DNA of 14,643 nucleotides from Candidatus Parcubacteria bacterium (lineage in GTDB: Bacteria > Patescibacteriota > Minisyncoccia > Phycocordibacterales > Phycocordibacteraceae): the NCBI GenBank assembly GCA_027459545.1, contig DAIDID010000008.1, positions 1 to 14,643 on the forward strand, read 5' to 3'. Under the pieces are notes generated by a model. It was not told where the DNA came from and did no database searches. It was given only the letters and a program-made list of their open reading frames with translations. The number at the start of each line of letters is the position of its first letter. Position 1 is the stretch's first letter. Shown here one piece after another: positions 1 through 14,363 of this stretch. The position numbers and the translations under genes are program-made.

Positions 1-618
1 TGGGTAGGGGCAAATGAAGAAGTTTTCCATCCACGCAAGGGCACCAATCAAGGAGTGTCTAAGGTAGTTCATTTTCATGGATCGTTTATTCCACTACAAG
101 GAATTTCATACATACTCGATGCTGCAGAATTGCTTCTCAAAGAATCAATTGAATTTCGTATTGTAGGAAACGGTCAAGAATATAAATCAATGACGCATAA
201 AGCAGATGAACAAAATCTCTCAGCCGTTACATTTATAGGACCTGCTTCCTTACAGGATCTTTCACAATACATGTCAGAAGCAGATCTTTGTCTCGGTATC
301 TTTGGCAATACTGAGAAAACGATGCGCGTAATTCCAAATAAAGTCTTTGAAGGAATGGCAATGGGTAAAGCGATCATTACTGCAGATACTCCAGCTATTC
401 GTGAGCTTTCTGTGTATGGAGAATTACCGCTTGTATTAGTGCCCACAGGAAATCCGCGTGCACTTGCAGACGCAATTTTAAAACTATGTAACGAAGACGA
501 CGTTCGAAATAAATTAGGAGCAGCAGCCGCTAGTTTTTTTGAGGCGAATTTGCAAGAAAAAAGTATTGTCGCACAGCTCTTCGAAGAGCTTACAAAACCT
601 CATTTTCAGAAAATCTAA
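1..618 (+). CDS. GT4-family glycosyltransferase, 5' end outside the window
   Basis: Retaining-type (GT-B fold) glycosyltransferase, expected to move a sugar from a nucleotide-sugar donor to a growing surface glycan at the cytoplasmic membrane face. Only the C-terminal, nucleotide-binding half is present: 205 codons read open from base 1. The frame before the first possible start (GTG at 55) already encodes family-like sequence (a VGANEEVFHPR segment, then FHGSFIPLQG), so GTG 55 is internal and the gene starts upstream. Visible GT4 landmarks are the FHGSF..LQG strand-loop, FRIVGNGQEY, VTFIGP, and near the end NKVFEGMAMGKAIITADTP..RE, which carries the Glu of the donor-binding EX7E-type region. 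A methyltransferase follows after 20 bases. The fold is secure; the sugar is unknown. Confidence 0.88.
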   Translation, partial: WVGANEEVFHPRKGTNQGVSKVVHFHGSFIPLQGISYILDAAELLLKESIEFRIVGNGQEYKSMTHKADEQNLSAVTFIGPASLQDLSQYMSEADLCLGIFGNTEKTMRVIPNKVFEGMAMGKAIITADTPAIRELSVYGELPLVLVPTGNPRALADAILKLCNEDDVRNKLGAAAASFFEANLQEKSIVAQLFEELTKPHFQKI

Positions 619-632
619 TACTCCGCTATACT
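605..632 (+). promoter_or_regulatory. Candidate promoter with -10 six bases before the ATG
   Basis: TATACT at 627-632 is a good -10 hexamer. A partial -35 (TTCAGA, 605-610) lies 16 bases upstream, inside the end of the preceding gene. The -10 ends six bases before ATG 639, so the expected transcription start is at or next to the ATG, giving a leaderless mRNA. No Shine-Dalgarno sequence is present. The same geometry is seen at 14503-14515. Confidence 0.5.
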
Positions 633-638
633 TTCCGT

Positions 639-1307
639 ATGACACGATTCCCGAATGTTGGTCGATTAGACTACTCTGACTATTGGAAAGCGCGTGGGTT
701 TGAGCTTCAATCAAAACTGCGCGAGCGAGAAGTGCTAATGCTTAAACTAATTCCTGCTGGAGCACGCGTACTTGATGTGGGCTGCGGAAATTCGCGTCTT
801 CCTGTTGAACTAAAAGAAAAAGGATGTACCGTAGCGGTTGCAGATATTTCGCCTATAGTACTCGATGCTTTTCATAAAAGAGGAATTAGTGCAATTACTA
901 TGGATCTTGATGCGATTACAGAAACAAAAGAAATTGGTTCATACGACTACATCATTATGAGCGAAGTACTCGAACATACTCGAAATCCTGAAGAAATTCT
1001 CAAAACGCTTTCGGCGCATACAACTCACTTCATGCTTACGGTACCAAATACTGCTTTTTATAAATTTCGTTTGGCGCTTTTTTTTGGTGGTCATGCAATT
1101 AAGCAATGGGCTCATCATCCGTCAGAGCATCTACGCTTTTGGTCACATAGTGATTTTAAAGATTGGCTTCGTGGACTTGGATTTATCATTGAATACACTC
1201 GCGCTTCAAATGGTTTTGCTTCTCGCAGAACGTCCTTTTTTAAAGATCTCTGGCCAAATCTCTTTGGGCATCAAATCGTCTATTTATGCAAGGTACCCGC
1301 TTCATAA
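639..1307 (+). CDS. MetW-like class I SAM-dependent methyltransferase
   Basis: A 222-residue Rossmann-fold methyltransferase. Motif I is VLDVGCGNS (residues 44-52), the acidic residue after strand 2 is in VADIS (about 69), and a YDYIIMSEVLEH stretch at 102-113 matches the MetW/UbiG style. The segment TVPNTAFYKFRLALFFGG followed by HLRFWSHSDFKDWLRGLG resembles the MetW family, whose namesake is linked to methionine biosynthesis. Here the neighbours are glycosyltransferases, so a role in methylating a glycan or its lipid carrier is more likely; that is inference. The start follows a -10 box by six bases. The 3' end overlaps the next gene by 22 bases. Class I methyltransferase is certain; the substrate is not known. 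Confidence 0.88.
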   Translation: MTRFPNVGRLDYSDYWKARGFELQSKLREREVLMLKLIPAGARVLDVGCGNSRLPVELKEKGCTVAVADISPIVLDAFHKRGISAITMDLDAITETKEIGSYDYIIMSEVLEHTRNPEEILKTLSAHTTHFMLTVPNTAFYKFRLALFFGGHAIKQWAHHPSEHLRFWSHSDFKDWLRGLGFIIEYTRASNGFASRRTSFFKDLWPNLFGHQIVYLCKVPAS

Positions 1308-2071
1308 AAGAAATTGTTTTGAGTGGACTAACACTCCTTTCCCCAAAACTTGGCCCTTGGGCGAGCATACTTATGTATCACTCAGTAGGTGATAACTCAG
1401 CATTATTCACCGTACCAACTACTTCCTTTGAAAAGCAATTGCAGTATCTCGTAAAACATAACTATATAGTTATTCCTTTATCAGAACTAGTTTCTCGTAT
1501 AAAAAATAAAAAGTCTCTAAAAAAAGTAGTCGTACTTACATTTGATGATGGATATGCTGATAACTACGAAATAGTTTTTCCACTTCTTAAAAAATATAAC
1601 CTTTCAGCGAGTATATTTGTAACTACAGGCATGGTAGGCACTATTTCAAAAGATCGCACGGGCGCACAGCTACCAATGCTTTCAGTAGAGCAAATAAGGG
1701 AGATGAAACAAAGTGAATTAATTGAATTTTTACCACACGGTGAGCTCCATGTGAAATTACATAACGCTTCACGTGATGAAGCACAAAAGGAAATTACAGA
1801 TTCTCATATGCACCTGCAAGCAATGCTTGGAGAAGTGCCAGCAATTTTTGCCTATCCTTCAGGAAAATATTCAAAAGAAACACTACGCCTTCTTGTAGAA
1901 GAAGGGTATATAGCAGCCTGTACTGTGCGTCCTGGTTTGGTGCGCCAAGAAACTTCACTCTTTGAGTTACCACGAAATCATATAGATTCTGCAACGTCAT
2001 TTACTGAATTTTGTGCTCGACTCTCGCTTGCAGGCGAATGGTATGAGAGACTAAAGACGAATCGAGTATGA
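1286..2071 (+). CDS. Polysaccharide deacetylase (NodB homology domain)
   Basis: Metal-dependent deacetylase that would remove N- or O-acetyl groups from a sugar polymer or precursor (261 residues). The NodB motifs are in order: an ILMYHSVG opening strand (28-35), TFDDGY with the catalytic and metal-binding Asp pair (D87, D88), HGELH giving the His-x3-His metal pair (H151, H155), and FAYPSGKYS (188-196). H151 is followed by Gly where the family usually has Ser or Thr, a mild departure. No convincing signal peptide is seen, although most homologues act outside the cytoplasm; it may work on a lipid-linked intermediate inside. ATG 1286 lies within the previous gene, and the TGA overlaps the next ATG (ATGA), suggesting translational coupling. 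No SD is visible. Confidence 0.9.
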   Translation: MQGTRFIKEIVLSGLTLLSPKLGPWASILMYHSVGDNSALFTVPTTSFEKQLQYLVKHNYIVIPLSELVSRIKNKKSLKKVVVLTFDDGYADNYEIVFPLLKKYNLSASIFVTTGMVGTISKDRTGAQLPMLSVEQIREMKQSELIEFLPHGELHVKLHNASRDEAQKEITDSHMHLQAMLGEVPAIFAYPSGKYSKETLRLLVEEGYIAACTVRPGLVRQETSLFELPRNHIDSATSFTEFCARLSLAGEWYERLKTNRV

Positions 2072-3174
2072 AAATTTTATATGTAGCAAATGTGCGTATG
2101 CCTACAGAAAAGGCGCATGGTATTCAAATAATGAAAATGTGCGAGGCCTTTGCTAAGCAAGACAATCTTGCTGCTCTCCTTGTGCCAAAGCGAAAAACTC
2201 CAATCACAGAGTCACCTTTTTCTTACTACGGTATTCATACAGAATTTCCAATTAAATTTCTTCCAACGATAGACGAGGTTAGGTGGGGAAGTCTTGGTTT
2301 TTTACTACAAACGTACACTTTTACACAATCAGTTAAGAAGATACTCAAAAACTACAGTGGGGCAGTGATATATGGACGAGATGAGCGGGTATTGTGGGAG
2401 CTTATGAAAAAAGGGCCACAGCGGTCATTTGTGTGGGAAACCCACACAGGTGCATGGAATTCAGCAGCGCGTCGTGTAGCAACTCGTGCGACATACGTAG
2501 TTGCAATTTCTCAAGGACTTAAAGATTTTTATGTTTCAAAGGGTATTTCTTCAGAGAAAATTATTGTTGCTCACGACGCAATTGACCTTGCTGCATTTTC
2601 AAATCCCGAAACTAAGGAGCAAGCTCGTATGCGGCTTAGCCTCCCAGTTAATAAAAAGATTGCACTTTATATTGGCCGTGTCGATGGTTGGAAAGGAGTT
2701 GATGTTTTAGGGAAAGCATCTGAATTTCTACCAGAGGATATTTTAGTGGTGGTCATCGGCGGAGAAGTTGCACAACTTTCTGAACTTAAAAAGCTATATC
2801 CACGGGTTACATTTCTTGGACCTCGACCCTATACTGAGCTTGTACATAATCAAGCTGCAGGAGATGTACTCGTACTTCCAAATACTGGCACCAATGAAAT
2901 TTCTGCGCGATTTACATCGCCACTTAAACTTTTCTCCTACATGGCTGGGAATCGTCCGATTGTCGCTTCAGATCTTCCGAGTATTCGAGAAGTACTAGAT
3001 GACACCTGTGCGTATTTCGCAATTCCGGACGATCCCCATTCATTTTCCAAGCAAATACAAATTGCTCTTACGGATTCTGAGGCAGTTGAAAAGGTGTTCC
3101 GATCACGAGCTCGCGTTGAAGAATATACATGGGATGCTCGAGCAGAGAGAATAAAAATTACACTTTGTATTTAA
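2068..3174 (+). CDS. GT4-family glycosyltransferase
   Basis: Full-length GT-B glycosyltransferase of 368 residues, probably acting on the cytoplasmic side in surface-glycan assembly. The acceptor half opens with MKILYVANVRMPTEKAHGIQ (1-20), the usual family start with a histidine loop. The donor half begins at IALYIGRVDGWKG (198-210), followed by VTFLGPRPYTEL (248-259) and TSPLKLFSYMAGNRPIVASD (283-302). In relatives the last motif normally reads KLFEYMA; here the Glu is Ser (residue 290), so the EX7E donor-binding pair is incomplete. Start ATG 2068 overlaps the previous stop by four bases. The final residues (KITLCI) coincide with a drop in GC content and may be a recombination scar. The next gene begins two bases after the stop. 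Confidence 0.88.
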   Translation: MKILYVANVRMPTEKAHGIQIMKMCEAFAKQDNLAALLVPKRKTPITESPFSYYGIHTEFPIKFLPTIDEVRWGSLGFLLQTYTFTQSVKKILKNYSGAVIYGRDERVLWELMKKGPQRSFVWETHTGAWNSAARRVATRATYVVAISQGLKDFYVSKGISSEKIIVAHDAIDLAAFSNPETKEQARMRLSLPVNKKIALYIGRVDGWKGVDVLGKASEFLPEDILVVVIGGEVAQLSELKKLYPRVTFLGPRPYTELVHNQAAGDVLVLPNTGTNEISARFTSPLKLFSYMAGNRPIVASDLPSIREVLDDTCAYFAIPDDPHSFSKQIQIALTDSEAVEKVFRSRARVEEYTWDARAERIKITLCI

Positions 3175-3176
3175 TT

Positions 3177-3860
3177 ATGGAAGGACACTTAAGACATTTA
3201 CAAGCACTTATTTCTCTTGAGGGGAAGAAAGTGCTCGATTTAGGCTCTGGAAGAGGAGATTTTATTATTACTGCAAAGAAAAACAATATTGATGTTGTCG
3301 GAGTTGAATTAAATTCCACTTATATAGAAGAAACAAAAAGAAAAGCACAAAAAGAAAATCTCCAAATTGAAGTATTTCAAGGAGTTGGTGAAAAGTTACC
3401 TTTTACTAATAACACTTTTGATTTTATAAATATGAGTGAGGTTATTGAACACGTGAAAGATCCTGAAAAAGTTTTGTCTGAAGTATACCGCACCCTAAAA
3501 CCAGACGGATCTGTATATATAAGTGTTCCGAATAGATTCGGACTAAAAGATCCACATTATCACTTATATTTCGTCAATTGGCTTCCGAGATCTTTTTCAG
3601 ATTTTTATATATCTCTTTTTAAGAAAAAAAAGCAAGATGATAGTTCTGCGGGGCTTCAAAATCTGAAAGAAATGCATTACTACAGATTTCAAGATGCTAA
3701 AAAACTTTTTGAGAAGCTAGGATTTTCAGTTACTGATATTCGTAGCTTAAGAATTAAGAAAGAATATAAAAATGGTTTTCAATATTTACTACAATTTATT
3801 TATTTGATAATACGAGCATTTTATTTCGACACCTTTCATATACTCCTAAATCGAAATTAA
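3177..3860 (+). CDS. Class I SAM-dependent methyltransferase (Methyltransf_11/23 type)
   Basis: A 227-residue methyltransferase when started at ATG 3177 (MEGHLRHLQ). Motif I VLDLGSGRG is at 19-27, the ribose-binding acidic residue is E44, and EKLPF..NTFDFINMSEVIEH runs from 72 to 92. The VPNRFGLKDPHYHLYF segment (118-133) and an aromatic C-terminal tail fit enzymes that modify glycans or lipids. An in-frame ATG at 3129 would add 16 residues overlapping the upstream glycosyltransferase; part of that extension (NYTLYLIMEGHL) still reads like family sequence, so the natural start may have lain further upstream before a rearrangement. The gene is clearly more AT-rich than those before it. The substrate cannot be told from sequence. 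Confidence 0.85.
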   Translation: MEGHLRHLQALISLEGKKVLDLGSGRGDFIITAKKNNIDVVGVELNSTYIEETKRKAQKENLQIEVFQGVGEKLPFTNNTFDFINMSEVIEHVKDPEKVLSEVYRTLKPDGSVYISVPNRFGLKDPHYHLYFVNWLPRSFSDFYISLFKKKKQDDSSAGLQNLKEMHYYRFQDAKKLFEKLGFSVTDIRSLRIKKEYKNGFQYLLQFIYLIIRAFYFDTFHILLNRN

Positions 3861-3875
3861 ATTTTCATTTATGAT

Positions 3876-4916
3876 ATGAAAGTACATTTTTTTACAAAGG
3901 GAGATATAAATACTGGGAGTAGTAGATTAAGAGCATATCAGATTGCTGAAGCACTTAATGTAAGGCATTTTATATCGATAGTGCATACCCCTTCATCAGA
4001 AAAATTAAGTCAAACTCAATGGCCGAAAAAAGGAATAGAAATATTTATTTTTGTCAGGACTCTTTTCTCAGTTCGAAATGGGGATGTACTGTATCTACAA
4101 AGAACGATTTATAACAAATATATGTTATTGGGATTTCTCATACTTCGTCTCTTTTTTAAAGGAAAAATTATATTTGATTTTGACGATGCGATATTTATAC
4201 ACTCTCCACTAAAGACAAGATTATTAATATGGATCTCAGATTATATATTTGTTGGAAGTCATTACTTACAATCTTGGGCTAAAAAATATTCATCAAATGT
4301 TGCGCTAATTCCAACGGCATTAAAAGCTGAGCACTATTTAGCAAATACAATAACTTATATCGAGAAAGAAGTGGTTACAATTGGTTGGGTGGGGAATGGC
4401 CCCGCTCACTATGAGAATTTATGTATTTTAATTCCTGTATTTGAGGAGTTACTCAAACAGGATATTTCCATAAAGTTTATTCTTGTTGGAGCTATGTATT
4501 CCAAACAAGTAAATGAACTTTTTTCAAAGTTTACAAAATTAGACTTAACTCTTATTCAAGAACTAGATTGGGGCGACCCACTTGCAGTACCTAAAATAAT
4601 TAGTACCTTTGATATAGGTGTTATGCCACTTATTGATTCAGAATGGAGTAAAGGAAAATGTTCTTTAAAAGCTATCGAGTATATGATGTGCGGTGTACCA
4701 ACTATATGCTCAGCAGTTGGTGAAAATAATTACGTTATGTCAGAGGGGGGGGGATTATTGGCTTCAAATACCGAGGAGTGGGTTAAAAAAATAAAGATGC
4801 TCTTAGAGAGTAAGGATTTGCGAAAGCAGCTAGGTATTACAGGGCAAAGAAAGGCTTTAGAAAATTACTCACTAGATGCTATATTTCCAATGATATTTGA
4901 TATACTTTCTACATAA
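3876..4916 (+). CDS. GT4-like glycosyltransferase containing a nine-G tract
   Basis: GT-B glycosyltransferase of 346 residues. The N-terminal half has MKVHFFTKGDINTGSSRLRA and FDFDDAIF (100-107). The C-terminal half has TIGWVGNGPAHYENL (168-182), FILVGAMYS (201-209) and KCSLKAIEYMMCGVPTICSA (261-280), the donor-binding region with E268. Immediately after it, bases 4745-4753 are nine consecutive G, encoding part of E-G-G-G (G291-G293). Loss of one G would read into TAA at 4792-4794; gain of one would read into TAA at 4784-4786. Either removes about the last 45 residues. The gene is intact as given. It is AT-rich like its neighbours and follows the previous gene by 15 bases. Acceptor and donor are unknown. 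Confidence 0.87.
   Translation: MKVHFFTKGDINTGSSRLRAYQIAEALNVRHFISIVHTPSSEKLSQTQWPKKGIEIFIFVRTLFSVRNGDVLYLQRTIYNKYMLLGFLILRLFFKGKIIFDFDDAIFIHSPLKTRLLIWISDYIFVGSHYLQSWAKKYSSNVALIPTALKAEHYLANTITYIEKEVVTIGWVGNGPAHYENLCILIPVFEELLKQDISIKFILVGAMYSKQVNELFSKFTKLDLTLIQELDWGDPLAVPKIISTFDIGVMPLIDSEWSKGKCSLKAIEYMMCGVPTICSAVGENNYVMSEGGGLLASNTEEWVKKIKMLLESKDLRKQLGITGQRKALENYSLDAIFPMIFDILST
4901..4906 (+). promoter_or_regulatory. Possible -10 box upstream of the FkbM gene
   Basis: TATACT lies 20 bases before ATG 4927, inside the end of the previous gene. No recognisable -35 hexamer lies 16-18 bases upstream, and in such AT-rich DNA the match may be chance. If it is used, it would let the downstream methyltransferases be expressed when the G-tract gene is frameshifted. 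Confidence 0.25.
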
Positions 4917-4926
4917 GATCAATCCT

Positions 4927-5505
4927 ATGAATTTTTTACAAAGAATCAAACTAAATTTATACGACGATCGGGAGATACGTAGGCTCGTGGCTGAAGGAGA
5001 ATATAAATTTGAAAAACAACCTAAGTACATACTTGATCTGGGTGCACATAAGGGGTTCGCGACGACACATTTTGCAAAAAAATATAAAAATGCTCAGATT
5101 CATGCCTATGAGCCAAATCAAAAACTCTTTTCTATTCTTAGAAGACGTGTAAAACGCTATCCTCACGTTACTGTATTTAATGAAGCAATTTCAGATCACG
5201 ATGGCACTGTCTCGTTTACAATTACAGAGCGTAATGTTTCTTCCATGATTGGTTCCGGAGTAAAGGTTCCTTGTGTTTCACTAAAAACAGCAATATCTCG
5301 CATTGGAATACCTGTATCTATTAAAATGGATATAGAAGGTGCAGAATTTGATGCACTTAAAGACACACACGGAATACTGGAAATTACTGGAGAGTTACAC
5401 CCACAAAAAGCAGGTCGCAAAAATGAAGAAATAAGACAAGTTTTATCTTCATTTGCTTCAGTAACTATACAAGGAAGCGGTAAATGTCTTTTCCATGCCG
5501 TATGA
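4927..5505 (+). CDS. FkbM-family methyltransferase
   Basis: A 192-residue SAM-dependent O-methyltransferase of the FkbM family, a family often found in polysaccharide and antibiotic clusters where it methylates sugar hydroxyls. Evidence is motif I YILDLGAHKGF (34-44), the AYEPN acidic motif (60-64), and the family hallmark IKMDIEGAEFDAL (132-144), followed by a shortened end with EITGELHPQ (152-160). The chosen start is ATG 4927 because it lies outside the previous gene; an in-frame TTG at 4897 would add ten unlike residues overlapping it. The final TGA (5503-5505) overlaps the next ATG by four bases, so the two genes are probably translationally coupled. Family assignment is firm; the target sugar is unknown. 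Confidence 0.87.
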   Translation: MNFLQRIKLNLYDDREIRRLVAEGEYKFEKQPKYILDLGAHKGFATTHFAKKYKNAQIHAYEPNQKLFSILRRRVKRYPHVTVFNEAISDHDGTVSFTITERNVSSMIGSGVKVPCVSLKTAISRIGIPVSIKMDIEGAEFDALKDTHGILEITGELHPQKAGRKNEEIRQVLSSFASVTIQGSGKCLFHAV

Positions 5506-5996
5506 AACTGCTCCTTGGAGGCGGCTCGAAGCATAAAGATGGATTTACTAATATAGACATACTTCCTTTAAAGGAAGTTGATATTGTTGCAAACTTGGCG
5601 GAAGGAATACCTTTAGATGATAATTCAGTAGATGAAGTATTGGCAGAGAATATTCTTGAGCACTTACCAGATACTGTATTTATCATGGAAGAAATATGGC
5701 GCGTTTGTAAACCAACTGCAAAAGTAGTGATAAAAGTTCCTTACTTTAAATCAACTGCAGCATTTAAGGATCCAACACATATAAAATTTTTTACAGAGAG
5801 AACAATGGAATACTTTGATCGAAATTTTGTAGGAAGATTACCTGATAACAATTACAAGTGTAATTTTAAGACAGATAAAATCATCTTTAATTATTACACA
5901 CGCGGAACTAAATATATCCCATTTGTATTTCTCATGAGAAGATTCTTTTGGGATATTGTAAAAACAATAGTATTCGAGCTGACGGTTATTAAATAG
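5502..5996 (+). CDS. Small SAM-dependent methyltransferase-like protein
   Basis: A 164-residue protein of the type that begins MKLxLGxGxKxxxGFxNID: here LLLGGGSKHKDGFTNIDI (3-20), with D19 as the ribose-binding acid, then DEVLAENILEHL (44-55) and KDPTHIKFFTERTMEYF (89-105). These are typical of short predicted methyltransferases in glycan clusters. The glycine-rich loop reads GGG where relatives have GCG, and the fold lacks the long C-terminal strands of larger enzymes. ATG 5502 is preferred because it makes the ATGA overlap with the FkbM gene and gives the family's normal N-terminus; ATG 5484 would add six unlike residues. It ends six bases before the stop of the oppositely oriented flippase gene. 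Enzymatic activity is likely but not certain. Confidence 0.8.
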   Translation: MKLLLGGGSKHKDGFTNIDILPLKEVDIVANLAEGIPLDDNSVDEVLAENILEHLPDTVFIMEEIWRVCKPTAKVVIKVPYFKSTAAFKDPTHIKFFTERTMEYFDRNFVGRLPDNNYKCNFKTDKIIFNYYTRGTKYIPFVFLMRRFFWDIVKTIVFELTVIK

Positions 5997-6002
5997 ACTA
6001 GC

Positions 6003-7286
6003 TTAAGTCTTTCGTGACTCTAGATGATAAGCAATAAATATAACAACGCTCGACGAAAGACGAGTAATTACACGAGCAAAAATAAGTCCCCATAATCCCC
6101 ATACAATAGTTCCGACTGATATACACACTAGTTGAACTACAGAGTTTATGGTGGAACAAATATACTGCGCCCGAACTAATTTCTTAGCAGCAAGATATGA
6201 ACTTGCAGGTGCGAGAGCAATGCTAAAAAGAGATAAAGCATATACTTGTGAATAAGAAATCGATACTAAATATGTTGGAAAAAGTATTTTATATATAAAT
6301 GGAGCTAGGGGTATATAAACAATAATGACCAAAGTACTTAAAATAAACATCCACAAATATTTGTTCCGCATTCCTGAGTAGATAGTTGTTTTTTGTTGTG
6401 GAGCAAAACGAGCTTGCATCATCGCATCGAGAGTCTTAAGAGGTCCCTTTATTTGATCGAGTATTCCAATTGAAAAAGTATAAATAGCAAGATCAGCAGC
6501 ACTTGAAAAGTGGAAAAGAAGCACTTGATCCAAATTTCCTGCGATTCCATTTAAAATACCTATAGCACTTAGGTGTTTCCCATAGGTGAGCATTTCAGGA
6601 TCTTTTTTAGATATATCAGGTTTATATTTTTGAATAGTACGCCAGTATGCGTATATTGTTGCTCCAAAGTTAGAAAGGAAATAAACAATTATTAAGGCGA
6701 GAGGATTGGGCGCAATAAAAGCAGTGATAATTAAAGCAATCATTGGTATTACATTTGTAATAACGTCACCGAACCATGCTTGAAGTGCAAAATCACGTTT
6801 GCCTAGGAGGTATGAATTATAAAGATTAGTACTTGTAAGAAATGGAGTAATAGACCCTCCTATAAATATTCCTATACCAAGAATATAATTTCCTATTAAG
6901 AGATAATAGGCTCCGAAGGCAAGTGCACCAGTAAATATAGCAAAACTCCACTTTATATTTTTTTTTACACCTTCCATAAATGCACCATCATATCCTCGTG
7001 CGACAGATTGAAACACAGCTCCTCCAAGATTATTTAGTGAAAAAGTTGAAAGAATCGTAATAATAGCGAGAATATATTTATATTCTCCATAGACTTCTTT
7101 TGATACGAGTCTACTCATGAAAATAGAAAGAATAAAGGCTGACCCTGCTGCTGCAACTTGAGCAATTACCGACCATGACATGCCGTTCAGCAAATAACGT
7201 AAATCAGTTTTAAGTGTTTTTTCAGCCCAAAAAAAGGTCCTTTTTACAAACAAAGGTATGGGAATATGGGGGGATTTTGAATTCAT
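6003..7286 (-). CDS. Wzx-type polysaccharide flippase (MOP superfamily)
   Basis: Integral membrane protein of 427 residues with about eleven or twelve hydrophobic segments. The first follows a basic stretch (KTDLRYLLNGMSWSVIAQ), the arrangement seen in oligosaccharide flippases that turn undecaprenyl-linked repeat units outward across the membrane. The second region has MSRLVSKEVYGEYKY with ITILSTFSL after it, a classic Wzx/RfbX pattern, and the middle has GILNGIAGNLDQVLLFHF, another family feature. No soluble domain is attached. The gene converges on the methyltransferase at 5996 and diverges from the ligase at 7322, with only 35 bases between the two starts, so both halves of the export route probably share a control region. 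It is AT-rich. The exact substrate is unknown. Confidence 0.88.
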   Translation of the reverse strand: MNSKSPHIPIPLFVKRTFFWAEKTLKTDLRYLLNGMSWSVIAQVAAAGSAFILSIFMSRLVSKEVYGEYKYILAIITILSTFSLNNLGGAVFQSVARGYDGAFMEGVKKNIKWSFAIFTGALAFGAYYLLIGNYILGIGIFIGGSITPFLTSTNLYNSYLLGKRDFALQAWFGDVITNVIPMIALIITAFIAPNPLALIIVYFLSNFGATIYAYWRTIQKYKPDISKKDPEMLTYGKHLSAIGILNGIAGNLDQVLLFHFSSAADLAIYTFSIGILDQIKGPLKTLDAMMQARFAPQQKTTIYSGMRNKYLWMFILSTLVIIVYIPLAPFIYKILFPTYLVSISYSQVYALSLFSIALAPASSYLAAKKLVRAQYICSTINSVVQLVCISVGTIVWGLWGLIFARVITRLSSSVVIFIAYHLESRKT

Positions 7287-7292
7287 GGTCCT

Positions 7293-7312
7293 AGTGTACT
7301 ATGTAGTATACT
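7293..7312. promoter_or_regulatory. Overlapping divergent promoters between flippase and ligase
   Basis: The 35-base gap between the two starts contains the palindrome AGTATACT (7305-7312), which places a TATACT -10 box on both strands. On the plus strand it ends nine bases before ATG 7322. On the minus strand it lies 18 bases before the flippase ATG (7286), and a second minus-strand hexamer TACACT (7298 to 7293) ends six bases before that ATG. No good -35 was found for either direction, and neither gene has an SD. Polymerase could serve only one direction at a time if the shared box is used. Confidence 0.42.
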
Positions 7313-7321
7313 TCACTATAT

Positions 7322-9511
7322 ATGAATAAATCAGCCTTTAAAGTCGTGCGTTGGGTCACGCTCATAGCCCTTTTTATAATTCCGTTCATTCCATTATATG
7401 TTTCAGACAATCTCTTCTTTCCGTTTATCACAGGGAAGAACTTTGCATTTCGCATACTCGTTGAAATTGCCTTTGTGGGATGGTCGCTTCTTATGCTTGC
7501 AGACAAAAAGTATCGCCCACGCTTTTCGTGGACTGCTGCTCTCTTTGGTTTATTTGTAATCTGGATGGCAATTGCTGATGCTTTTGCAGTAAATCCCGCA
7601 AAAGCGTTCTGGAGTAATTTTGAGCGTATGGATGGTTGGATTACGCTCATACACCTGTTCTTATTTTTCTTGGTTGCAGGAACGATGTTTTCTGTCGATT
7701 CGCTTTGGAAAAAATGGTGGTACACCTTCCTTGGTGTCTCCGCATGGCTTTGTGCATATGGCTTCCTACAAACCTTCGGCGTACTCGCTATTCATCAGGG
7801 ATCAACACGACTCGATGCAACCTTCGGCAACTCAGACTATCTCGCGTGCTACATGATTTTTGCAACAGCCATAACACTCTGGCTTGCGCTTGAGTCTAAA
7901 GTGCCCGAGAAAGAAAATGGAAAGAAGAAGCTTAATTGGCTTAGATATATATTATTTGTACTTGCTGCAAGTGAAGTGCTCATACTCTTTCTCACTGAAA
8001 CGCGAGGAGCAGTGCTTGGATTTGTTGGAGCTGTAGGGCTTGGTGCGATTCTTTGGATGCTTGAGTCAGGAAAGAAAGGTCGAAAGATTGGCGCGATTGT
8101 ACTTGCAGGACTCATTCTTGTGGCAGGTGGGCTTTACATGGCGCGTAACGAACCAGTCATCGCCCACAGCGCGCTCTTTGGTCGTTTAGTTAGTATCTCA
8201 ATAAAAGATCCAGAAACAGACACTCGTCTCACGATATGGCACATGGCGCTCGAAGGCACCATGCAAAGACCTGTTACAGGATGGGGGCAAGAAGGCTTTA
8301 ATTACGTTTTCAATAGATTCTATGAGCCGAAATTAAACAATCAAGAGCCGTGGTTTGATCGCGCTCATAATATGTACCTTGATTGGTTGATTGCCGGAGG
8401 TGTGCCAGCCCTACTTCTTTTCCTCGCACTGCTTGGGAGTGCAGCGTATGCGCTGTATCAGCGAGACGTATCGCGCACTGAGCGTGTCATTCTTCTTTCT
8501 GCTCTTGCCGCATATTGTTTTCAGGGATTGTTTGTGTTTGATAATCTCTTTTCCTACGTGCCGTTCGTTGCGATTCTAGCTATAGCATATGGAGGAGCAT
8601 CACGTCCTATAAAAAAACTTGAGAACATTCCTGAATTAAATCCGTCTGACTTTCTAACTTTTGCGCTTCCTATTGGAGCTATTGTGCTTGCGCTGATGAT
8701 TTATTTTGTAAATGTGCCAAATATCCAAGCGGCAGGGGATTTGATTACGGCAATTACTCCTTCTTCAGACCCAACTACAAACCTCGCTGCTTTTAAACAA
8801 ACCTACGCAGATCATTCGTTTGCAAATCAAGAAGTAACTGAGCAGCTGCTCACCTTTGCTGAAAAAGTAGTGAGCGATAAATCAAACTCAGAAGCAGTTA
8901 AGAACGAAGTCTTCGCGTATGCTATGCAGCAAGCACAAACACTTGAAAAGAACATTCCATATGATGCACGCATACATCTCGAGATTTCATCCTTTTATGC
9001 TTCAGGAGGGGATTTCAATGATGCATTCAAAGAAGTGCACCTAGCAGAGCAAGAAAGTCCGCTTAAGCAAGGAATGTATCTGCAAGAAGGTATTGAAGCA
9101 ATTGAGTCTGGAGATAATCAACTTGCCGAACAGGTATTTACTAAAGCTTACGCGCTCGATACCTCTTTCAGTACTGTTGGAGTATATGCAGCGGCAGGAG
9201 ATATATTAAATGGTCAAATTCCGCTCGGTAAATCAGTCCTCATGCAAAATTTTGGAACCACTACAGTTGATCAAGATATAATTCTATATGCATACTACCA
9301 AGTGAAAGATCTTCCGGATTTTATTGCAGTATGGAAACAGCGTGTCATAGACCAGCATAATGCTGATACGGCGGAATTTGGACTTGCAGCAGCGTATGCA
9401 GACTCAGGTGATGTAGCAGATGCAAAAGCCGAGCTTCAAACTGTCGTTTCGCAGCATCCTGAGGATGCGTCGCAGGTGAGTTCATATCTCTCACAAATAA
9501 ATGGGAAGTGA
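7322..9511 (+). CDS. Wzy/WaaL-family O-antigen ligase-like membrane protein with C-terminal TPR-like region
   Basis: A 729-residue protein. Residues 1-465 hold about a dozen membrane segments and the Wzy_C/O-antigen-ligase signature: FGNSDYLA (168-175), TETRGA (225-230, with R228 matching the conserved ligase arginine) and WGQEGFN..(about 20 residues)..DRAHNMYLDWLIAGGVPA (321-363, with the conserved H349). Such proteins transfer or polymerise lipid-linked glycans on the outer membrane face. Residues 480-729 are soluble helical repeats of TPR type (for example FNDAFKEVHLAEQESP and SGDVADAKAELQTVVSQHPE), which would face outward and may bind protein acceptors. It could be a polymerase, a ligase, or a protein O-oligosaccharyltransferase. 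No lipid A genes are in the window, so a protein or carrier-lipid acceptor is plausible. MurB follows directly. Confidence 0.86.
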   Translation: MNKSAFKVVRWVTLIALFIIPFIPLYVSDNLFFPFITGKNFAFRILVEIAFVGWSLLMLADKKYRPRFSWTAALFGLFVIWMAIADAFAVNPAKAFWSNFERMDGWITLIHLFLFFLVAGTMFSVDSLWKKWWYTFLGVSAWLCAYGFLQTFGVLAIHQGSTRLDATFGNSDYLACYMIFATAITLWLALESKVPEKENGKKKLNWLRYILFVLAASEVLILFLTETRGAVLGFVGAVGLGAILWMLESGKKGRKIGAIVLAGLILVAGGLYMARNEPVIAHSALFGRLVSISIKDPETDTRLTIWHMALEGTMQRPVTGWGQEGFNYVFNRFYEPKLNNQEPWFDRAHNMYLDWLIAGGVPALLLFLALLGSAAYALYQRDVSRTERVILLSALAAYCFQGLFVFDNLFSYVPFVAILAIAYGGASRPIKKLENIPELNPSDFLTFALPIGAIVLALMIYFVNVPNIQAAGDLITAITPSSDPTTNLAAFKQTYADHSFANQEVTEQLLTFAEKVVSDKSNSEAVKNEVFAYAMQQAQTLEKNIPYDARIHLEISSFYASGGDFNDAFKEVHLAEQESPLKQGMYLQEGIEAIESGDNQLAEQVFTKAYALDTSFSTVGVYAAAGDILNGQIPLGKSVLMQNFGTTTVDQDIILYAYYQVKDLPDFIAVWKQRVIDQHNADTAEFGLAAAYADSGDVADAKAELQTVVSQHPEDASQVSSYLSQINGK

Positions 9512-11792: not shown

Positions 11793-14363
11793 ATGGCTAA
11801 TTTCTTGGGAAATCTCTTTGCGCAAAATCAATCCGCCAGCTTTTTAAAAGCTGGCGCTCCGGTCGTGGCTCATGCAGCGAAACTCGCAGACGAACTTTCA
11901 AATCTTTCACGAGATGAGCTCGCTGCACGGCTTGCTTCTGTAAAAGAGCGTACAAGTGGAGTACCAGAAAAAGATGAAGACATTGCTGAGGTGTTTGCGC
12001 TTGTGCGCGAGGCATCCTCGCGCACATTAAAGGAGCGTCATTATGACGTTCAGCTTCTTGGTGGACTTACGCTCGCAAAAGGAAAAATTGCTGAGATGCG
12101 TACTGGGGAAGGAAAGACGCTCGTTGCTACGCTCGCAGCTACGCTGCGAGCGCTTGCTGGCAAAGGCGTGCACTTGGTCACCGTAAACGACTATCTCGCA
12201 CGTCGTGATGCAGCATGGATGGGTCAGGTCTATTCATACCTTGGTCTTTCGCTTGGCGTAGTTACTTCGCAAGGCGCATACTTATACGATGCAACACATA
12301 TCACAAATCCCGATGAAGACGAAACACGTGATGAGCTTGGCTCGTTTAAAGTTTTTTATGACTATCTTCGCCCAGTAACAAAAAAAGAAGCGTACGCAGC
12401 AGACATTACCTATGCTACCAATAACGAGCTTGGGTTTGATTACCTTCGTGATAATACCGCGTATGATTCTTCACAGCTTGTGCAGCGCGGTCACCACTAT
12501 GCAATAGTAGACGAAATCGATTCCATTCTTATAGATGAAGCACGCACACCTTTAATTATTTCTGGCCCTGTAGGAGATGCAGAATTACTCTATGACAAAT
12601 TTGCGCGCATAGTAGCAGGATTTATTCCAGAAGAAGACTACACTGTAGATGAAAAACAAAAAGCAGTGCAGCTAACCGATGCAGGAATTACCAAAGCAGA
12701 AAAAGCGCTTGGCATAGAAAATCTCTACACGGAAGGAGGCGTAAAGTATGCACATCACCTTGAGACGGCTGTGCGTGCAAGGGCACTTTTCACAAAGGAC
12801 AAAGAGTACGTTATAAAAGACGGTGAAATAATGATTGTCGATGAGTTTACAGGGCGACTACAGCCAGGACGACGTTGGTCAGAAGGTTTGCATCAAGCAA
12901 TTGAGGCAAAGGAAGGTGTCACTATACAGAAAGAAACTCGCACCTATGCGAGCGTTACCTTTCAAAACTTCTTCCGCATGTATGACGCACTCGCAGGAAT
13001 GACAGGAACTGCGCTTTCTTCAGAAGAAGAATTTTATACTGTATATGCGCTTGATGTCGTAGTCATACCGACAAATCGCAGCATTCAGCGCATCGATCAT
13101 CACGATGTGATTTTTCAGACGACTAAAGGAAAGTACACCGCGCTCGTGCGGCAGGTTAAAGAACTTCGCGAAAAAGGTCAGCCAGTGCTGGTAGGTACGG
13201 TTTCAATAGAAGACAATGAAGTTGTAAGTGAGTACCTTACAAAAGCAAATATTCCCCACGAGCTTTTAAATGCGAAAAATCACGAACGAGAAGGTGAGCT
13301 CATAGCGCAAGCAGGCCGAAAAAATCGCGTGACAGTCGCCACAAACCTCGCTGGTCGCGGAGTTGATATAAAGCTCGGCGGCGCGCCAGTAGACTTCGAT
13401 GAGCGCGAGGCGGTAATGGATGCAGGCGGTCTGTACGTGATAGGTACGGAGCGTCACGAGGCGCGCCGCATTGATAATCAGCTCCGCGGTCGCTCAGGCC
13501 GCCAAGGTGACCCAGGTGAAACGCGTTTCTATGTATCGCTTGAAGATAAACTCATGCGGGTATTTGCGTCAGACATGATGCAAAAAGTAATGGGCACATT
13601 TAAAATTCCGGAAGACGAACCAATAGAGAGCTCGCTCATTTCAAAGTCACTCGAGACAGCACAAAAAAGAATTGAAGGATTTAATTTTGATTCTCGAAAG
13701 CAAGTACTCGCATACGACGACGTACTAAACACACAGCGCCTTTCAGTATATGCACAGCGTCGCATTGCACTTATGGGTACCGCTGAAGAGCTTGAAACCG
13801 TAATTCTCGGAATGATTGCGGGCGATGAGCAAGCACTTCAGACGTACGACACCAAGCGCGCAGAGCTTGGCATAGATGCATTTACAGGAATTATTCGTAG
13901 AATGCTCCTACAAATAATAGATACCTATTGGCTTGAGCAGCTCGAGACAATGGAATACTTGCGAAAGTCAGTTTCACTTCGTGCATACGGACAACGCGAT
14001 CCACTCATCGAATATCGTCGAGAAGGACTTCAGCGATTCACACGTATGCAGCAGGGTATTGCAGGAGCATTTGCAGAGGCACTTCCACGCATTCAGTCTG
14101 TAGATGATGCACAGGCGCGAGCAATACAAGCTGAGCAAGAACGCACGCGTAAGGCACTTGTTGCGGCGAGCGAAAGTGGAGATGGCACAGGAGGAAGAGG
14201 TGGCAAAGGAAATGGCAACGGGCAATCACAAACACCAATCATAAAAAGCGGAATTCAATTTGAGCGAAACGACGTCGTCACTATAAAGCGTGGTGAAGAA
14301 ACTCAGACACTTAAGTATAAGAAAGCAGAACCACTTCTCGCTGAGGGTTGGGTTATTGAGTAA
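11793..14363 (+). CDS. secA: Preprotein translocase ATPase SecA with reduced C-terminal half
   Basis: Motor of the Sec pathway, pushing unfolded proteins through SecYEG (856 residues). Visible in order: Walker A MRTGEGKT (102-109), VTVNDYLARRDA (129-140), TNNELGFDYLRDN (209-221), Walker B VDEIDSILIDEARTPL (239-254), MTGTALSSEEEF (about 402), GTVSIEDNE, TNLAGRGVDIKLGG (about 516) and QLRGRSGRQGDPGE (about 563). A charged segment (about 162-198, GAYLYDATH..ELGSFKVFYD) is inserted before the conserved KKEAYAADITY. Only about 50 residues separate VYAQRRIALMG (about 650) from LLQIIDTYWLEQLETMEYLR (about 704), so the helical-wing region is much shorter than in E. coli or Bacillus. The zinc-binding C-terminus is missing; a Gly-rich linker (796-812) leads to a basic tail (820-856). 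ATG 11793 follows an extended -10. Confidence 0.96.
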   Translation: MANFLGNLFAQNQSASFLKAGAPVVAHAAKLADELSNLSRDELAARLASVKERTSGVPEKDEDIAEVFALVREASSRTLKERHYDVQLLGGLTLAKGKIAEMRTGEGKTLVATLAATLRALAGKGVHLVTVNDYLARRDAAWMGQVYSYLGLSLGVVTSQGAYLYDATHITNPDEDETRDELGSFKVFYDYLRPVTKKEAYAADITYATNNELGFDYLRDNTAYDSSQLVQRGHHYAIVDEIDSILIDEARTPLIISGPVGDAELLYDKFARIVAGFIPEEDYTVDEKQKAVQLTDAGITKAEKALGIENLYTEGGVKYAHHLETAVRARALFTKDKEYVIKDGEIMIVDEFTGRLQPGRRWSEGLHQAIEAKEGVTIQKETRTYASVTFQNFFRMYDALAGMTGTALSSEEEFYTVYALDVVVIPTNRSIQRIDHHDVIFQTTKGKYTALVRQVKELREKGQPVLVGTVSIEDNEVVSEYLTKANIPHELLNAKNHEREGELIAQAGRKNRVTVATNLAGRGVDIKLGGAPVDFDEREAVMDAGGLYVIGTERHEARRIDNQLRGRSGRQGDPGETRFYVSLEDKLMRVFASDMMQKVMGTFKIPEDEPIESSLISKSLETAQKRIEGFNFDSRKQVLAYDDVLNTQRLSVYAQRRIALMGTAEELETVILGMIAGDEQALQTYDTKRAELGIDAFTGIIRRMLLQIIDTYWLEQLETMEYLRKSVSLRAYGQRDPLIEYRREGLQRFTRMQQGIAGAFAEALPRIQSVDDAQARAIQAEQERTRKALVAASESGDGTGGRGGKGNGNGQSQTPIIKSGIQFERNDVVTIKRGEETQTLKYKKAEPLLAEGWVIE
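11834..11856. repeat. Perfect 11-bp inverted repeat near the secA start
   Basis: CGCCAGCTTTT (11834-11844), one T, then its exact complement AAAAGCTGGCG (11846-11856), covering codons 14-22. It begins about 40 bases after the ATG. Confidence 0.8.
12002..12026. repeat. Perfect 11-bp inverted repeat inside secA
   Basis: TGTGCGCGAGG (12002-12012), loop CAT, then CCTCGCGCACA (12016-12026), coding for the VREASSRT segment. Confidence 0.8.
12130..12152. repeat. Perfect 10-bp inverted repeat inside secA
   Basis: CGCTCGCAGC (12130-12139), loop TAC, then GCTGCGAGCG (12143-12152), just after the Walker A coding region. Confidence 0.78.

Follow-up and report, generated by a model that had tools for sequence, protein, structure and literature searches.

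A nine-G run in a surface-polysaccharide glycosyltransferase gene of a Parcubacteria bacterium: a candidate site of phase variation

The contig analysed here, a stretch of 14,643 nucleotides from a Candidatus Parcubacteria bacterium (the window), carries nine consecutive G residues inside a glycosyltransferase gene, and we regard this G9 run as a reasonable, undemonstrated candidate for a switch. The run is real and in frame, and the gene that holds it is intact in its assembled state. It is unusual for the gene and for the window, and unremarkable among genomes of the genus. That it represents a contingency (phase-variation) site in a glycosyltransferase of a lineage without detected MutS or MutL is the reading that we tentatively prefer, with a confidence somewhat short of even; for this reading we infer a useful rate of slippage, inactivation of the enzyme by truncation and selection for switching.

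The run, its gene and the surrounding locus

The initial annotation had placed nine consecutive G inside a glycosyltransferase, and both the position and the gene type proved right when checked against the sequence and Pfam. The run has an A on both flanks and lies 4.7 kb into the 14.6-kb contig. The features that bear on its interpretation are as follows.

3876-4916, plus strand: glycosyltransferase gene with the run, 346 aa, intact as assembled (Pfam PF13692 and PF00534; alignment A1 with 19 relatives)
4745-4753, plus strand: G9 mononucleotide run, in frame, coding for the end of Glu290 and for Gly291-Gly293
4784-4786, plus strand: TAA used if the run is one G longer, giving a 303-aa product
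4792-4794, plus strand: TAA used if the run is one G shorter, giving a 305-aa product
1-9511, no strand assigned: surface-polysaccharide locus around the gene (Pfam scan of ORFs)
6003-7286, minus strand: Wzx-like flippase (Pfam scan)
7322-9511: Wzy_C/ligase-like protein (Pfam scan)

The 346-aa protein scores 56.6 bits against PF13692 (cut-off 27) and 44.2 bits against PF00534 (cut-off 26.4) and matches its relatives over the full length, and on these grounds we assign it to the family-4-type (group 1) glycosyltransferases; in a PDB sequence search the best E value was 0.0083. The G+C content of the gene is 33%, against 40% for the window. According to the Pfam scan the locus also contains more glycosyltransferases, a polysaccharide deacetylase and methyltransferases, one of FkbM type lying directly downstream of the gene, and MurB is among the neighbours. 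A further ORF of 856 aa at 11793-14363 is presumably SecA, which it resembles. Rfam searches of the window plus ten relative loci returned one RNase P and two tRNAs, with no match at any of the runs.

A change of one unit in the length of the run turns the predicted full-length protein into one of the two truncated forms listed above. We recomputed both frames and the logic originally proposed holds, with one G lost leading to the TAA at 4792-4794 and one G gained to that at 4784-4786. It had also been proposed that any slip would remove about the last 45 residues; truncation is correct, and the figure requires revision, as the native sequence stops at residue 292 or 293 after a slip and 53-54 native residues are thus lost, with a product 41-43 aa shorter than 346 aa. 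The run sits late in the gene, at residue 290 of 346, and both alternative frames close after at most about 13 codons and add no recognisable extension.

Long G runs and mismatch repair in the genus

The assembly to which the window belongs (480,076 bases in 71 contigs, 79% complete) contains no other run of nine or more G, two runs of exactly seven and none of exactly eight. When the window was scanned by pattern for other repeats with units of 1-9, only two T9 runs were found, at 6958 and 10725. Markov models built on the window after masking the run predict 0.14-0.39 G9 or C9 runs in 480 kb and 0.004-0.012 in the window, and among 5,000 synonymous shuffles of the encoded residues 4.5% attain a run of nine. 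The density of such runs in the genus is 61 listed in approximately 37.8 Mb (the sum of rounded genome sizes, which range from 0.3 to 1.0 Mb), or 0.78 per 480 kb, across 58 genomes that include the window's own; the comparison set comprised one genome per species. The idea that G9 is improbable genome-wide was ruled out by this expectation, and with about 0.8 such runs expected from the genus background in a genome of this size, the mere presence of the run proves nothing.

The 61 runs are matches to a base other than G followed by nine G, a definition that leaves out runs at a contig start or after N, and they are spread over 35 of the 58 genomes. Run lengths in the genus comprise 291 exact G7 and 57 exact G8, from which geometric continuation gives 13.9 runs of at least nine, so that the 61 listed represent a roughly four-fold excess, and this persists when nine runs are removed as contig-end artefacts. 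The excess is no proof of function, since slippage without repair lengthens runs too. Poly-G was also seen at contig ends, at G056:C28:1-71 and G024:C3:84014-84033 and at the starts of G034:C7, G028:C2, G046:C31, G026:C7 and G008:C17; such tracts probably arose as artefacts of sequencing or assembly, and they inflate the raw counts.

Mismatch repair was looked for with MutS (PF00488), which matched in none of the 58 genus genomes, including the 41 that are at least 90% complete and at most 5% contaminated; of 14 controls, 11 gave a match. MutL (TIGR00585) gave no match over the cut-off in the 58 genomes, 11 of 14 controls again exceeding it, and weak short N-terminal matches were present in ten genomes, including that of the window. 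The available part of one comparative study lists MutS and MutL among the families that differ in presence between candidate-phyla lineages (PMC8406219), so a lack of them in this genus would not be unique.

The context of long runs was surveyed for 48 of the 61, the remaining 13 being left out because a contig end is no more than roughly 200 nt away from them (G013:C9:148559, G056:C15:9703, G042:C3:78861, G014:C28, G026:C7, two in G024:C3, G028:C2, G034:C7, G046:C31, G057:C2, G057:C13 and G008:C17). As a control we used 40 of the 291 exact G7 runs, 38 of them taken from every fourth of about 150 listed rows together with two others. Outside retroelements, 12 of 34 runs of at least nine fall within ORFs, compared with 31 of 40 sampled G7 (P 3.5e-4); long coding runs therefore look avoided, and an intact coding G9 invites a reason. 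Enrichment of the non-retroelement runs at secreted-protein genes was unsupported by a crude hydrophobic-N-terminus rule (6 of 34 against 10 of 40 G7), a rule that is weak both ways because it missed secreted proteins recognisable by eye (for example at L162 and L168). Among the run-bearing ORFs inspected, ten of which were scanned with Pfam, no other intact glycosyltransferase with a run was recognised.

The run site in relatives and the competing explanations

We compared 99 relative loci, one set of which consists of 80 listed of 86 confirmed. None of the 88 that align over the run site, two of which (L003 and L022) are the same contig, has more than four consecutive G there, which rules out the run as a conserved feature of the family. 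The commonest residues at the site are D-G-x-N-G, in mixed codons. Relatives with mixed glycine codons had been named beforehand as evidence that would speak against a switch, and in form such codons are what the relatives mostly carry; they indicate that the run is young or private and are no proof that its length is fixed. Elsewhere in the gene, a C8 or C7 run is carried by three of its five genus relatives (one of the five partial): L003 and L008 share a site, L004 has its run at another, and L005 and L006 have none. Synonymous shuffling of these runs gave P values of 0.025, 0.106 and 0.019, and they appear only mildly unusual, offering weak support. A G8 in the contig of a relative in genome G047 (L022:1375) was put aside as lying in an apparent glycine-rich methyltransferase motif.

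If the run is phase variable, replication slippage would add or drop G residues, and lengths differing from nine by anything other than a multiple of three would yield an enzyme cut before its conserved end, with loss of the invariant W302 and the near-invariant G320. A clone would then contain both cells that carry the sugar and cells that lack it, and the sequence as assembled would be in the ON state. Slippage-switch loci are often poorly conserved between relatives, so the lack of a run at the same gene lowers the standing of the gene as a phase-variable member without excluding it.

A neutral and transient run is also quite possible: recent slippage without mismatch repair would have lengthened a G tract in a tolerant loop, where it may still mutate, with no selection for switching. 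The genus expectation for runs of nine or more, the restriction of the G run to the window's own sequence and the crude rule's failure to show more runs than the G7 control at secreted-protein genes all favour this reading. What argues the other way is the displacement of long runs from ORFs elsewhere in the genus, together with the nature of the gene, as the surface-glycan glycosyltransferases, to which its Pfam-defined locus context points, are a functional class typical of such switches.

The length of the protein at the site is relevant to a further explanation. The corresponding segment is one residue longer than that of the window in 86 of the 88 relatives (L050 and L016 being equal), with the difference falling exactly at the run, and in alignment A1 all 19 relatives are one residue longer. 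This shortening hints at a past change in length, and would fit a three-base loss in a longer run, the simple deletion of a codon or the collapse of a run during assembly. An assembly or consensus artefact, in which the true length differs (12, for example) or a mixture was collapsed to nine, would account for the short loop, and homopolymers are error-prone and the poly-G at contig ends of relatives shows that such assemblies carry artefacts. We consider it improbable nonetheless, given that nine G keeps the frame, that beyond the run the alignment with relatives continues as far as the C-terminus and that the run lies well inside its contig. Programmed transcriptional or ribosomal slippage producing two protein forms from one DNA, although possible in principle at long mononucleotide runs, is very improbable here given the lack of a run in relatives and the early closure of both alternative frames.

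Repeats at other genes of the genus and in known systems

Long runs elsewhere in the genus bear on the phase-variation reading of the window's run. Of the 61 listed, 16 occur at or within reverse-transcriptase genes of a single type, 14 of them among the 48 examined (that of L172 inside the gene) and two on contigs of G057; the 14 of 48 runs of at least nine compare with 0 of 40 sampled G7 (P 8e-5). This reverse transcriptase is present in 24 of the 58 genus genomes and had no match in the 79% complete genome of the window, and the association was ruled out as an explanation of the window's G9, whose own context is different. A divergent neighbour of the reverse transcriptase resembles Avd (NF033474) with E values of 2.5e-22 and 1.4e-15 and scores of 79.1 and 57.5 bits, below the cut-off of 80. 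A template/variable repeat pair was found in six of eight loci examined (none in L286 and L287), the two repeats differing at 10-21 positions at which the template has A, or T when read from the opposite strand, and at 0-1 further positions. From these features we classify the elements with these reverse transcriptases as diversity-generating retroelements. In G030, a single-contig genome, a run of 18 (L172:2222-2239) is located where the reverse-transcriptase gene changes frame.

In one clade of these elements (L202-L216, L221, L224 and L226) a run of C8-C13 precedes the conserved Avd core in 16 of 18 copies; L214 has nine CGAA copies (2488-2523) in place of the C run and L216 has neither. 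An ATG in frame with the Avd core and open to it is present in three of the 18 clade copies (L202, L203 and L224) against all seven run-less copies, a count that considers ATG starts only, leaves out L229-L231, removed ahead of the counting, and includes L223 and L225 as partial. As non-ATG starts and starts after the run fall outside this count, the run may be either inside the avd coding sequence or between two promoters. L216, which has no run, is out of frame, and this cuts against a simple switch reading. The avd-linked repeats are possibly a slippage switch acting on a targeted mutator.

Further runs are found at genes of other kinds. Paralogous secreted-protein genes of G013 (L162, L163, L165 and L168) are preceded by five runs that stop 38-47 nt short of the ATG, and one run in G015 (L180) is placed 13 nt before the ATG of a similar gene, these runs being G9-G13; judged from their position, the runs ahead of secreted-protein genes are candidates for promoter-type switches. 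Runs near the start of T2SSF/PilC-type genes occur in frame in two species, at different codons (G10 at L189:2161-2170 and G9 at L199:2149-2157), one run is in an ORF that encodes an FkbM methyltransferase domain and others were recognised by eye in ordinary genes such as ligase-like and ABC-transporter-like ones. A run of 16 was observed in an ABC-transporter-like gene of G030 (L173:2218-2233). In G016 a G9 (L170:2187-2195, contig C11) lies where an upstream ORF in another frame overlaps the ORF of a family-2 glycosyltransferase (PF00535, 6.7e-26), whose first in-frame start is only inside the catalytic domain and leaves 325 of 388 residues, compared with open frames of 435-474 aa in three close relatives. 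The upstream piece, used as a query, had no significant match. Our own reading, made by eye from an alignment with L235, would place the frame break at the G9 run, a nearby T6 being the alternative.

These cases could be combined into a genus-wide set of simple-repeat contingency loci, made up of glycosyltransferases (the window's G9 and the G016 family-2 enzyme), the G013 runs ahead of genes and the C8-C13 or CGAA repeats in the first codons of avd, where slippage would toggle targeted mutagenesis; we regard so broad a set as rather unlikely. The avd-linked repeats are more novel than the window's G9, and the repeats at other genes of relatives are more persuasive as switches.

The window's run resembles the poly-G/C tracts through which Campylobacter undergoes translational phase variation of surface-glycan genes. 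It differs from the systems of both Campylobacter and Neisseria in its late position in the gene, in a small-genome lineage without detected MutS or MutL, and in its standing as a candidate. According to the available text of a Neisseria phasome study (PMC5953494), poly-G/C of at least nine is the cut-off for phase variation, and the likeness extends to a run of this length in a glycan glycosyltransferase, off-lengths that truncate and a surface locus; the same text gives 15-19 poly-G tracts per genome, in contrast to the one run of nine or more in the window's genome. A hypervariable repeat gene of a gracilibacterium is likewise a repeat from the candidate phyla radiation, for which the authors discuss slipped-strand mispairing in the part of the paper available (PMC6851277). 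It is a 9-mer array encoding a tripeptide repeat in which the frame is kept and the reported variation is mostly synonymous (PMC6851277), whereas the run described here is a mononucleotide tract of the putative on/off kind. In PMC6792436, as far as its available text goes, 'phase variations' is used in a different sense. Literature searches found no mononucleotide switch in Patescibacteria or the candidate phyla radiation, a weak negative with many subscription papers outside the search and some sources available only in part, and nothing joining diversity-generating retroelements with slipped-strand mispairing or with the candidate phyla radiation and avd together, which is weak for the same reason of subscription papers.

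The initial proposal of a phase-variation switch is thus upheld in part. A length of at least nine, the lack of MutS and MutL matches over the cut-off and the switch-like repeats of relatives speak for it; the relatives' lack of a run at the site and a genus norm of about one run of nine or more per genome speak against. If the run is phase variable, the switching of sugars by slippage reaches a small-genome, uncultured lineage, and the surface sugars of such bacteria may govern their contact with host cells and phages. The avd-linked repeats, if functional, would set a mutable switch on a targeted mutator and so join two mechanisms of diversity.
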